Origin: Nitrosomonas sp. HPC101
Lineage (GTDB): Bacteria; Pseudomonadota; Gammaproteobacteria; Burkholderiales; Nitrosomonadaceae
Assembly: GCF_009833125.1 (NCBI RefSeq)
Contig: NZ_QRCC01000001.1
Span: 62,001 to 126,000 of the forward strand
Reading direction: 5' to 3'
DNA: 64,000 nucleotides
Shown here: positions 7,516 to 37,714 of the stretch, in pieces
How the letters are laid out: every line of letters starts with the position of its first letter
Numbering within the stretch: the stretch's first letter is position 1
The notes under the pieces: generated by a model
What the model was told of the DNA's origin: nothing
Database searches by the model: none
The model's input: only the letters and a program-made list of their open reading frames with translations
Made by a program: the position numbers and the translations under genes

Positions 7516-7592
<77 letters not shown>

Positions 7593-32361: not shown

Positions 32362-33834
32362 TCAGAGCATAGGAGCCAGGAGACTTACTGCTCGTGATGA
32401 AAGCTTCTTATAGAGAGGGAGCGCCTCCATATCTGAATAGCTGAGTTTTTGCGAAGTGAGCATATCTTCTCTCAAGGCCAACTCTAACTGGCGATTGAGC
32501 CCCTGGTCTTTTACCAAAGCAGCAATCTCAAAGTTCAGAAAAAATGATCTCGAATCCAGGTTCATTGAGCCAATCATCGAGATATCATCATCGATCAGCA
32601 AAGTCTTTTGATGCAGGAATCCGCTGTTGTACTGGTAGAACTCCACCCCCACTTTAAGCAGTTTTTCCAGGTAGACCTTCGAAGCAAGTTTTACCCAGCG
32701 GTTATCACTCGGTCCCGGTACTATGATTTTAACCTCAACACCTCTTAAAACCGCCAGGGTTAAAGCATCCATCAATCCTTCTGGAGGAACGAAATAAGGG
32801 GTTGTCATCCAGATTCTATTTGTGGCTGATTTTATCAACTCCAGATGAGCCAGCGAACAAGCCTCAATATGATCCGCCGGGCCCGTGTGCAACACCAGTG
32901 CATCACTCCCTTCGGTTGCATAGTCACCTGGCCAGTCCAGCTCTAAAATCTCTTCGCGAATCCAGTACCAGTCTTTCATGAAGGCTATCTGAGCGGCCAT
33001 TGCGCCGGGACCCGCCAGCTTCACGTGGGTATCGCGCCACGCTCCCAGTCGGGGATTATTTCCCAGATACTCATCGCCTACATTATAGCCACCAACGAAC
33101 ACAACTCTTCCGTCGATCACAACATTCTTGCGATGATTGCGAAAATTAACCTGGAAATGGGCAAACCATCCTTTTATTGAGAAAAAGTAGCTGGACCGAA
33201 TGCCAGCCGCACTCATTTTCTCAATGATTCTTTTATGAATATTACCGTTGCTGCCGACTTTGTCACACAGGAAATAAACCCGCACGCCAGAACTCGCCTT
33301 CTGAATCAGAAGATCGATGAAGCGGGTTCCGATTTCATCCGCTTTAAAAATATAAAACTGAACCAGTATGTAATGTCGGGCTGCTTCGATCTCTGCAAAC
33401 ATCGATGAAAATGTCTGCTCTCCACTCAGCAGCAGCTCGGCTTTATTGTATTTCAGGAAGCCGGGCTGTGCCGTTTGGGCAGTGATCGCATCAAAAGCCC
33501 TTAAATTCCAGGGTGCAGGGGCTTGAAAGGCAGAGGCGCTTTCCAGTTCCGCAAGTTTTGCTTCTGCTGTTTTATCATGTTCTTTCCGGTCTTTGATATA
33601 GCCAATGAATCGATTACGTCCAAAAACCAGAAAGAGTGGAACTGCGATAAAAGGAAAACTGACAAGAGCTATAATCCAGGCAGTCGTTCCCTGGGGAGTC
33701 CGTGTACGCCATAGCGCCAGAATAGCGCAGCCTAACCCCGCCAGATAAAACAGCGGTGTAATGACATAAAAGATTAACTCCAGCGGCCAGTCGGCAATGA
33801 GCTGTTTAATTGAAATTGAAACTTCAGCAGCCAT
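32362..33834 (-). CDS. cls: Cardiolipin synthase, phospholipase D family
   Basis: Inner-membrane enzyme that joins two phosphatidylglycerols into cardiolipin. It is 490 residues long with two N-terminal membrane helices (ELIFYVITPLFYLAGLGCAILALW, TTAWIIALVSFPFIAVPLFLVFG). Two HKD-type catalytic motifs are seen: HRKNVVIDGRVVFVGGYN near 227 and HQKTLLIDDDISMIGSMN near 405. I chose ATG 33834; a TTG three codons upstream is an alternative. It stands alone. Confidence 0.92.
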   Translation of the reverse strand: MAAEVSISIKQLIADWPLELIFYVITPLFYLAGLGCAILALWRTRTPQGTTAWIIALVSFPFIAVPLFLVFGRNRFIGYIKDRKEHDKTAEAKLAELESASAFQAPAPWNLRAFDAITAQTAQPGFLKYNKAELLLSGEQTFSSMFAEIEAARHYILVQFYIFKADEIGTRFIDLLIQKASSGVRVYFLCDKVGSNGNIHKRIIEKMSAAGIRSSYFFSIKGWFAHFQVNFRNHRKNVVIDGRVVFVGGYNVGDEYLGNNPRLGAWRDTHVKLAGPGAMAAQIAFMKDWYWIREEILELDWPGDYATEGSDALVLHTGPADHIEACSLAHLELIKSATNRIWMTTPYFVPPEGLMDALTLAVLRGVEVKIIVPGPSDNRWVKLASKVYLEKLLKVGVEFYQYNSGFLHQKTLLIDDDISMIGSMNLDSRSFFLNFEIAALVKDQGLNRQLELALREDMLTSQKLSYSDMEALPLYKKLSSRAVSLLAPML

Positions 33835-33843
33835 TCTTTCCAA

Positions 33844-34234
33844 TATCCTTTACTCGTATCAGCCCGCCCTTTGTGTGGGAATTTCCTGTTTTTTTATATC
33901 CTGCGAAGATGGCGACCTGAAATGGTTTTTAAGAAACCTCCGATTAAAAATCCTTTGCACATGCCCGGGAATGGAGATGCCTCATTTTAACAGACAGCTT
34001 TTTACTCAAACTCAAGCAGTATCAACTGTGAGAAAGGATTGCAGTTTATCGCGGTTTGATTTTTCTCATTCGGTTTTTCCTTTCAAATTGTTGAAAACAA
34101 ATATATCGGCCCCAAATATCGACGGAATGGCCTGGTGATAACTTATTCATCGAGGTTACCAGAGGCGGATAAACGATTCGCTGTGGTGTCCAGATCCGAT
34201 TGACGCCCGAATTACATCTTGATACATTCAACGC
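33844..34234. other. Intergenic stretch without a supported gene
   Basis: About 390 bases between cls and the phenolic-oxidation genes. Short frames on both strands lack ribosome sites and recognisable products. The right end leads into the inverted repeat at 34235. Confidence 0.5.
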
Positions 34235-34269
34235 ATCTATAGAAAGAGGCATTTAGGATTTCTATAGAT
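34235..34269. promoter_or_regulatory. 11-base inverted repeat, candidate operator of the phenolic-oxidation unit
   Basis: ATCTATAGAAA (34235-34245) and its exact reverse complement TTTCTATAGAT (34259-34269) flank a 13-base spacer, ending 38 bases before the ATG at 34308. Centre-to-centre distance is 24 bases, suiting a dimeric or tetrameric regulator. No regulator gene is adjacent. Confidence 0.5.
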
Positions 34270-34307
34270 TCCTCTGTGAGATCGTTACCTGACAGGAGTC
34301 TGTGAAA

Positions 34308-34931
34308 ATGGCTACTCGCCGACAATTCCTTCAGGGCTCGCTAGCTGCAGCGGGTCTTGCCATGGCGACCGATACCCTTGCCGATAGCCGGATCCTTGCA
34401 GCGATGCAAGATCCTGCTAAAGATTGCCTCAAACTGGAAGCCGCACTGTTCGAGCCTGCACACGCATACAGCGCAGCGTTTGGCGCCGCCGCCCGGCGCA
34501 TGGGTTTGCCCGCCTTTGCCATCGACCATGACATCACACCAGTCTGGCTGCATGTGGTACAACTCTGGCGCAACATGCCGGTTGCGATTGGAGGGCTGAC
34601 CTCGCAGACGCCACTCCTGCTGCTCGAACAATCGGCACGCGATTACGGGCTGCGGGTAAGGTTTCGTGGCGAACATCACCCTGCCGGGCAAAACATGGTC
34701 AGCCACTTGCTGGAAGGGCCCGGCGACATTCTCCATGCCTTTGAGGCCGGAACGATCCACGGAGCTGATTATGGCACCTGTATGGCGCATGCCCTCATCC
34801 ACTGCCCCATGGCCACCAGCCATCAGCAAACTGCGCGGCTGCAGATCACCACAACTGCGAACGACCGCACTGAGCTGGCACCACTGTACTCTTGGATCAT
34901 GGTCCCTCGTGAACAAGGAACAACCACATGA
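34308..34931 (+). CDS. Tat-signal protein of unknown function, linked to a VAO-type oxidase
   Basis: Protein of 207 residues that begins with a twin-arginine export signal (ATRRQFLQGSLAAAGLAMATDTLA), so it should be exported folded. I recognise no domain. It has several His-rich spots (GEHHPAGQN, ALIHCPMATSHQQ) and ends with WIMVPREQG. I chose ATG 34308 because AGGAG lies nine bases upstream; GTG 34302 is too close to it. It overlaps the flavoprotein gene by four bases (ATGA), so the two are tightly coupled and probably work together in the periplasm. Possibly an assembly factor or accessory subunit. Confidence 0.7.
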   Translation: MATRRQFLQGSLAAAGLAMATDTLADSRILAAMQDPAKDCLKLEAALFEPAHAYSAAFGAAARRMGLPAFAIDHDITPVWLHVVQLWRNMPVAIGGLTSQTPLLLLEQSARDYGLRVRFRGEHHPAGQNMVSHLLEGPGDILHAFEAGTIHGADYGTCMAHALIHCPMATSHQQTARLQITTTANDRTELAPLYSWIMVPREQGTTT

Positions 34932-36574
34932 AGCTTCCCTTTGATGTAAGCCAAACCAGCTTCGACGCTGCAGTGCAGGAATTCCGCAAGATCGTCGGCA
35001 CCGAGTGGGTCTTCACCGGTAGCGAAGACGTAGCACTGTATCGCGATGCATATTCGCTGATATGGGATGAAGCACACGAACTGGTACCATCCGGCGCCAT
35101 CGCCCCTGCCTCCACTGAAGAAGTACAAGCTGTGGTGCGCATCGCCAACCGCTACCGGCTGCCTCTTTTCCCCATTTCCACCGGCAAGAATCTGGGCTAC
35201 GGCGGCTCGGCACCCAACATGACCGGCACATTCATCGTCGACCTTAAGCGGATGAATCGCATCATCGAGGTCGATGACCGCAGAAACTTCTGTATTGTCG
35301 AACCCGGCGTGTCGTACTTTGATCTGTACAACCATATTCAAAAGCATGGCAAGCGGCTGATGATGGACATTCCCGATCCAGGCTGGGGCAGTCCGCTTGG
35401 CAACGCGCTCGACCATGGCGTCGGCTACACCTAGATGAACTACCGTGACCACTTCGGTTCGCATTGCGGTATGGAAGTGGTACTGCCGGACGGCGAAATC
35501 ATGCGCACGGGCATGGCAGCCGTACCAGGTGCCGAAACCTGGGCTGAGAACAAGTACGGCTATGGCGCTTATGTCGATGGACTGTTTGCTCAGGCAAACT
35601 TCGGTATCGTCACCAGAATGGGCTTTTGGATGCAACCCGCGCCGGATCATTTCCTTTCTGCCATGGTCAGGGTGCCCCGCTATCGCGACCTGGCCGCATT
35701 GATCGATGGCGTCAACCTCATGGAAGACCAGGGCCTGGTCGGCCATCCGCGCTACTCCTGCCCGATGGACCCGCTGATCCTGCAGATGGAGCCGGAGGTG
35801 TACAAACCCACGCCGGAGCTGATGCAGCTCAACAGCCAGCCGGGTGGCGCCAGCGTGGAGAAATACGAAGCATATGCACGTAAGCAGGGACATGAGTTCT
35901 GGAATGTATTGCTTAACTTTTACGGCCCGAAGGAAACCATCTACGCAAGCTGGGCTTATGCACAAAAGCTGTTTGGAACTATTCCCGGCGTGAAGTTCGA
36001 GGAAATTGAGAACTATCCGGATCCCTTGCGAAACCAGAAAGCTACTTCCGGAGCTCGACACAAGGTGGCACTGGGCATCCCCAATATGTCGATTTTCTCC
36101 ATCGGTGCACGCTCAGCCGCGATGCCGCAACCCAGTGACGGTCACGTCTGGTTCTCGCCCATCATTGCCCGCTCCGGTGAATCTTTCATGCGTGCGCATG
36201 AAGTATTCAGCAAGGCGGCGCGCGAGCTGAATATCACCTCTGCTCCGATTGGCGTCACAAACGTGCCCCAGACCTGGCAATACCGCACCTATGTGTATCT
36301 ATTTCCGGTGTTCGTCTCGCGTTCGAACAAGGAGCACAATCGCAAAGCGGTGCAGGATTTCCACAACCTGATCCGAATCGCCGCCGATCACGGCTGGACA
36401 GAATACCGTACAGCACCGTCGTTCCAGAATGCTGTAGCAGGAACATATTCATTCAACAACAACATTCTCATGCGCTTCCAGGAGCAGCTGAAAGACACCA
36501 TCGACCCGGAAGGTATCATGGCGCCGGGCCGGGGCGGCATCTGGCCACGCCGATACCGGGAGAACAAGTCATGA
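34928..36574 (+). pseudogene. VAO/p-cresol-methylhydroxylase-like flavoprotein, interrupted by an in-frame TAG
   Basis: FAD-dependent oxidase/dehydrogenase of the vanillyl-alcohol oxidase family, which oxidises para-alkyl phenols. The first half (168 codons) carries the FAD-binding fold (FPISTGKNLGYGGSAPN, FCIVEPGVSYFDLYNHI, DHGVGYT). A TAG at 35432-35434 interrupts the frame where relatives usually have Pro. The same frame then continues for 379 codons (MNYRDHFGSHCGMEVVLPDGE to MAPGRGGIWPRRYR). The full product would be about 548 residues, normal for the family. TAG is directly followed by ATG, so reinitiation as a split protein is conceivable, but no ribosome site is visible. The next gene encodes a cytochrome c, as in PchF/PchC pairs. 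Confidence 0.85.
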
Positions 36575-36936
36575 AAAATATAACCTCCTCGCTTGCACTG
36601 GTATTCATGCTGCTTGCGCCTCTTGCGTCCTCAGCGCAATCACCCGCACCGGCTGTGGATGAAACCCTGCTACGGCGAGGCAATGAACTGTATCAGTACT
36701 GGTGTGCCACTTGCCACGGTCGTGGTCCGGGCCATCCGGGCACACAGGCGCTGGAAACCCGCTACGGCGGCGCACTGCCTGCTGTACTCGAAGATCGGCC
36801 CAACCTCACTCCGGATTTTGTTGGGGCATTCGTGCGCAATGGGATTTCCATCATGCCGTTCTTCCGCAAGACAGAGATCAACGACGAGGAATTGGCCGCC
36901 ATTGGTGCCTACCTCTCACATACCCCAATTAAATAA
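36571..36936 (+). CDS. Cytochrome c subunit paired with the VAO-type flavoprotein
   Basis: Small secreted cytochrome c of 121 residues with a signal peptide (residues 1-22) and one heme site CATCH at 45-49; the axial Met is in ISIMPFF. Such PchC-like cytochromes accept electrons from the flavoprotein subunit of p-cresol methylhydroxylase. The start overlaps the flavoprotein stop by four bases, supporting a two-subunit complex. The gene is intact although its partner has a stop codon. Confidence 0.85.
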
Positions 36937-36967: not shown

Positions 36968-37714
36968 ATGATCCTTGAAAACAAAACTGCTATCGTCACG
37001 GGTGCCGCTTCCGGACTGGGTCGCGGCATTGCCCTGAAACTGGCCGAAGAAGGTGCCAATATCGTCATCGCCGATATTGATGAGGAAGGCGGCAACACAA
37101 CCCTGGAAGCCATTCGCGCGCTCGGCCGAGAAGCCATCGTAGTAATCGGCGATGTCTCTGATCCCGAATACCATGTCGAAATCATCAATCGTACTAAGGA
37201 AGCTTATGGCCGCCTGGATATCGCAGTTAACAATGCCGGTATCAGCCACAATTTCGCCCCGACCGCCGAGATTCCGCTTGCAACGTGGGATCGGGTGATC
37301 CGCATCAATCTGTCTGGCGTGTTCTATGGTGTGCGTGTGCAGATCCCGGCCATGCTTGAGACGGGCGGCGGCGTAATCGTGAACATGTCCAGCATTGCCG
37401 GTGCAGTAGGTTTTCCGGGCCTGTCACCGTATACCGCCGCCAAACATGGCGTGGTGGGACTGACAAAAAATATCGCTGTGGATTACGGCACACAGGGCAT
37501 TCGCGCCAACGCAGTGGGTCCCGGTTTCATCAAAACCGAACTGATCGACTACGTACCAGCCGAGCAACGTGCCACGCTGGAAGACGTGCACGCCATGCGC
37601 CGGCTGGGAGAAGTAGAAGAGGTTGCTGAACTGGTCCTGTTCCTTGCCAGCCCGCGGTCCACCTTCATCACCGGGGCCTACTATCCTGTTGATGGCGGCA
37701 TGCTCGCCCGCTGA
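36968..37714 (+). CDS. Short-chain dehydrogenase/reductase
   Basis: Classical SDR oxidoreductase of 248 residues: the cofactor motif TGAASGLG (11-18), an acidic residue after strand 2 (VIADID) that favours NAD, NNAG near 88, catalytic Ser in NMSS and YTAAK. The ATG at 36968 opens the Rossmann fold correctly. It lies 31 bases after the cytochrome gene and may oxidise the alcohol formed by the flavoprotein, although the substrate is not readable. Confidence 0.88.

Follow-up and report, generated by a model that had tools for sequence, protein, structure and literature searches.

A probable recent nonsense mutation in the flavoprotein gene of a p-alkylphenol methylhydroxylase-type cluster of Nitrosomonas sp. 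HPC101

Background

The closest described relatives of the locus considered here are flavoproteins of the p-cresol methylhydroxylase (PCMH) type with solved structures, namely PDB 9h40 and the PchF-type entries 1dii and 1wve. A further point of comparison is BpfAB of Sphingobium yanoikuyae DN12, which PMC12724174 describes as active in bisphenol F conversion and which, going by that description, also pairs a PCMH-like flavoprotein gene with an adjoining cytochrome c gene. Our literature search found no publication joining p-cresol methylhydroxylase and Nitrosomonas. The present analysis concerns a stretch of 64,000 nucleotides from Nitrosomonas sp. HPC101 (contig NZ_QRCC01000001.1, positions 62,001 to 126,000; hereafter the window), which contains a cluster of this type. 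When its flavoprotein frame is translated through an internal stop codon, the product is similar over its full length to 9h40, 1dii and 1wve, and the likeness includes an adjoining cytochrome c gene. It differs from these systems in several respects: 1) the flavoprotein frame is interrupted by a TAG codon; 2) a short-chain dehydrogenase (SDR) gene lies downstream; and 3) the gene upstream has no family match. The host genome encodes subunit A of ammonia monooxygenase (378.6 bits), identifying the organism as an ammonia oxidiser.

Results and discussion

Architecture of the interrupted locus

The PCMH-type frame occupies 34928-36574 of the forward strand, from an ATG at 34928 to a TGA at 36572-36574, and its sole interruption is the TAG at 35432-35434, which divides the product into pieces of 168 and 379 residues and is directly followed by an ATG codon (35435-35437). 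The frame is joined to both neighbors by ATGA overlaps, with the upstream gene at 34928-34931 and with the cytochrome c gene at 36571-36574 (Table 1). An earlier sequence-only reading had described the in-frame TAG followed by ATG in an otherwise open frame, as well as the ATGA coupling on both sides, and both descriptions were borne out.

Table 1. Features of the cluster and its upstream border (positions in the window)
Feature	Position	Strand	Remarks
Degenerate end of a presumed IS3-type element	33972..34092	.	Just upstream of the cluster; from congener DNA matches and alignment
Upstream gene, 207 aa, N-terminus presumed twin-arginine-like	34308..34931	+	Overlaps the flavoprotein start by ATGA
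Flavoprotein part 1, 168 aa	34928..35434	+	Stops at TAG inside the FAD-binding domain; PF01565 and PDB matches
Premature TAG codon	35432..35434	+	TGG in Nitrobacter vulgaris and Candidimonas
Flavoprotein part 2, 379 aa	35435..36574	+	ATG is an internal Met codon, common to the Nitrobacter copy
Cytochrome c partner, intact	36571..36936	+	PF13442, PF00034; ATGA overlap with the flavoprotein
Short-chain dehydrogenase (SDR), intact	36968..37714	+	PF13561, PF00106; 90% aa identity to the Nitrobacter cluster SDR

Translated with tryptophan at the stop, the frame matched 9h40 with an E-value of 2.1e-170 and p-cresol methylhydroxylase 1dii with 2.2e-78. Taken separately, both pieces align in register with 9h40 chain A: residues 3-168 of the first cover its positions 2-167, and residues 2-376 of the second its positions 170-547. 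The PF01565 match spans residues 54-166 in the first piece and 54-195 once the frame is read through. Of its 142 residues, 115 precede the stop, so that the FAD domain is complete in neither piece. The read-through frame thus combines a FAD_binding_4 domain with full-length similarity to solved PCMH/VAO-type members, and the adjoining cytochrome c gene places it with PCMH rather than VAO, but 34928-36574 is not the unbroken reading frame expected of such a flavoprotein. A structure prediction for the read-through frame, built on 11 sequences, had a mean pLDDT of 67.6 with values below 50 at residues 148-180, and is therefore silent on the split site.

The product of the upstream gene, whose N-terminus bears what we take to be a twin-arginine-like motif, matched nothing in Pfam or NCBIfam at E 0.001. 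A homologue precedes the flavoprotein gene in Candidimonas (40% amino acid identity) and, in frameshifted form, in Nitrobacter, and it is possibly an unrecognised partner of the flavoprotein. The degenerate element end that borders the cluster, presumably of the IS3 type, has DNA matches of 72-85% in several congeners, in some cases at the start of a contig, and at one matching end (L094) there is a transposase ORF with rve and HTH_21 domains; no repeats were found within 33700-34350. The cluster has a G+C content of 56.9% against 51.1% for the window. An Rfam search of the whole window returned a single tRNA, at 7516-7589. The gene 5' of the cluster is of the phospholipase-D type, where Candidimonas has a plastocyanin/azurin-family gene. 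The host also has a second PCMH-type flavoprotein frame, on contig 10, which is open and merely 28% identical over the second half.

The cluster in Nitrobacter vulgaris and Candidimonas

Nitrobacter vulgaris Ab1 carries the same four genes in a consistent order over two contigs (L066 and L020), with amino acid identities to the window of 90% for the second half of the flavoprotein, 90% for the SDR and 72% for the cytochrome. It is broken in another way than the window: a repeat element follows codon 33 of the flavoprotein gene, and the upstream gene is frameshifted. The breaks fall at L020 1-130 and L066 870-1698: codons 1-33, 25 of which encode the same residue as in the window, form the end of a contig of 3149 bases, and a second contig opens at about codon 134 of the gene. 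The stretch between, from codon 34 to about codon 134, was not found among the contigs of this assembly, from which short contigs may be absent. The 99 bases that follow codon 33 are present in three identical copies, all located at contig ends, a pattern that a transposable element would produce; this element end was absent from the viral contigs searched. The main text of PMC13101473, on the closed genome of N. vulgaris MLSD-S22, makes no mention of cresol, aromatic or pseudogene.

Candidimonas sp. SYP-B2681 (L021) shares with the window the upstream gene, the flavoprotein gene and the cytochrome c gene, all of them open, and differs in having the azurin-family gene upstream and no SDR directly downstream. 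This plastocyanin/azurin-family gene (L021 3385-3834) lies directly 5' of the cluster, and its product is a plausible electron acceptor.

Origin of the stop codon

At the site of the stop, N. vulgaris (90% amino acid identity) has TGG-ATG and Candidimonas (72%) has TGG-GGC. As both nearest relatives have TGG, the TAG of the window is a single transition away, as expected of a nonsense pseudogene, and the Nitrobacter sequence implies that the ATG after the stop is an inherited methionine codon older than the stop itself. We collected 32 distinct homologous loci, excluding three entries (L060, L062 and L079) that repeat places already counted. In 30 of them the site is occupied by a residue and in the other two by an alignment gap, and a stop codon is found in none; the residues are P in 21, Y in three, W in two, and M, V, A and C in one each. 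The structurally characterized 9h40 has alanine at this position and the PCMH-type congeners have proline, whereas the two nearest relatives of the window have tryptophan. The earlier expectation of proline at the stop hence holds for the more distant homologues and fails for the two nearest ones, and we reject proline as the ancestral residue. A paralogue in the genome G018 that had been considered as a second TAG case was also discarded, its 518-residue frame being open with proline at the site.

In light of these observations, we consider it likely that a p-alkylphenol methylhydroxylase-type cluster, acquired horizontally, lost the function of its flavoprotein subunit to a recent nonsense mutation from tryptophan TGG to amber TAG. 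The borrowed cluster, acquired by an ammonia oxidiser, would have comprised the unknown Tat-like gene, the flavoprotein, the cytochrome c and the short-chain dehydrogenase; a single TGG to TAG transition would then end translation at the stop, and the two pieces would fail to rebuild the enzyme. Ribosomes that end at the TAG may restart at the adjoining ATG and so keep the cytochrome translated, which would be incidental. Horizontal acquisition followed by decay appears to be the simplest account of the locus. Of the three options put forward in the sequence-only reading, it is the recent nonsense mutation that the TGG of both nearest relatives favors, and read-through and a reinitiation-based split enzyme found little support.

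The direct abutment of stop and start, the past constraint on the second half, and the frequency ascribed to reinitiation in prokaryotes in a review (PMC5972666) all lend some appeal to a working flavoprotein of two chains, produced when ribosomes terminate at the TAG and reinitiate at the adjoining ATG. We nevertheless regard this as improbable: a gene split that had become functional would be expected to be kept in relatives and to have gained its start codon together with the split, but no stop occurs at any of the 30 loci, the ATG is the ancestral methionine codon already present after TGG in Nitrobacter, and the break falls inside the FAD-binding domain. The adjacency itself is only mildly unlikely, as five of the 48 possible single-transition nonsense changes in this gene, or roughly one in ten, precede an ATG, at three codons including the observed one. 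The most elaborate form of the two-chain explanation, in which one mutation before a methionine codon created an enzyme of two chains, with reinitiation in tandem, assembly on FAD together with the cytochrome, and selection on the second half, seems to us highly improbable.

Translation at the stop

The predicted strength of the ribosome-binding site adds a further point against the two-chain enzyme. ATG 35435 scores a mere -1.7 kcal/mol, as against -8.1 for the upstream gene, -4.9 for the flavoprotein and -7.4 for the cytochrome, and several internal ATG codons outscore it. The SDR start, at just -0.4 kcal/mol, makes this score a weak measure, and initiation at ATG 35435 is compatible with a poor score, that of the SDR being lower still.

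Ribosomes pass through stop codons at a low basal level as a general matter, and the frame is otherwise perfect; some full-length enzyme might thus arise by read-through of the TAG. Against this, no tRNA with a CUA anticodon was present among the 41 tRNAs that the Rfam tRNA model recovered and ARAGORN typed, release factor RF1 is encoded in the host genome (526.7 bits), and TAG serves as an ordinary terminator, ending four of 43 window ORFs picked by eye. On the same grounds we reject genetic recoding or suppression, and we hold read-through to be an improbable source of active enzyme.

Selection and age of the lesion

The part of the flavoprotein gene after the stop has been under strong purifying selection. 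Over the 379 codons that follow the stop, comparison with Nitrobacter by the Nei-Gojobori method, with dS near saturation, gave dN 0.054, dS 1.41 and omega 0.039; the corresponding omega values are 0.042 for the intact SDR and 0.102 for the intact cytochrome. Ahead of the stop, 34 codons could be compared, with 15 synonymous and no non-synonymous differences. Against Candidimonas, omega is 0.125 before the stop and 0.096 after it, at a dS of about 2, so that in the Nei-Gojobori comparisons as a whole dS is close to saturation or beyond it. Polarised with Candidimonas as outgroup, the residue changes after the stop number 12 for the window lineage and 13 for the Nitrobacter lineage, and a further 15 could be assigned to neither. 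Hence, neither the omega of 0.039 nor the 12 against 13 changes gives any sign in the flavoprotein of a second lesion, additional decay or a relaxation of constraint.

The divergence thus built up almost entirely under constraint, which leaves three possibilities for the stop: a very recent origin, an error, or tolerance. The lack of further decay would follow equally from a very recent mutation, from a sequencing error, or from a split enzyme that works. That a lone codon deviates in an otherwise perfect and strongly constrained frame free of further decay would fit a population whose gene is intact, the TAG being a minor strain variant or an error of sequencing or assembly. We think this explanation unlikely, though less so than read-through or a two-chain enzyme, given that the cluster is also broken in N. 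vulgaris and survives as a fragment in another Nitrosomonas genome (below), which makes a real lesion plausible.

Distribution of the cluster among nitrifiers

Scoring three first-look candidates per genome, we found the full cluster in one of 85 genomes of the genus, that of the window itself. Among the other 84, 17 contain short matches of 31 to about 460 bases, all to the flavoprotein gene except one. The exception is a 128-base SDR fragment in the genome G007 (L056 1501-1628) that is 88% identical to the SDR of the window and lies just upstream of a glutathione-S-transferase-type gene, in a different frame; it is probably the remnant of such a cluster. Wider scans recovered, at E 1e-60, one genome out of 399 in the order, again that of the window; at E 1e-50, two out of 398 in the phylum (that of the window and G604); and one of nine genomes of the genus Nitrobacter. 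An exact peptide-pattern search of genome contigs yielded five loci.

No other copy of the TAG site was found in viral contigs, in plasmids or in the genus, order and phylum scans. The viral-contig scan returned nothing for the site, and the 30 plasmid records matched were all of 60-80% identity, none reaching 80% query coverage. A comparison of 11 kb around the cluster with 60 relatives and the host's own genome resolved no empty insertion site, single flank genes matching in many of them.

As a nonsense pseudogene, the flavoprotein of the window is ordinary. Of mild wider interest is that a p-alkylphenol-oxidising cluster is common to an ammonia oxidiser and to the nitrite oxidiser N. vulgaris, with the flavoprotein broken differently in each. 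In this small sample of two cases and one fragment, such a pattern would point to nitrifiers having gained and lost an aromatic-oxidation trait more than once. A single contig of the genome G604 carries two PCMH-like flavoprotein genes (L080 and L081) at a short distance from each other, both with about 41% identity to the second half of the window's flavoprotein.
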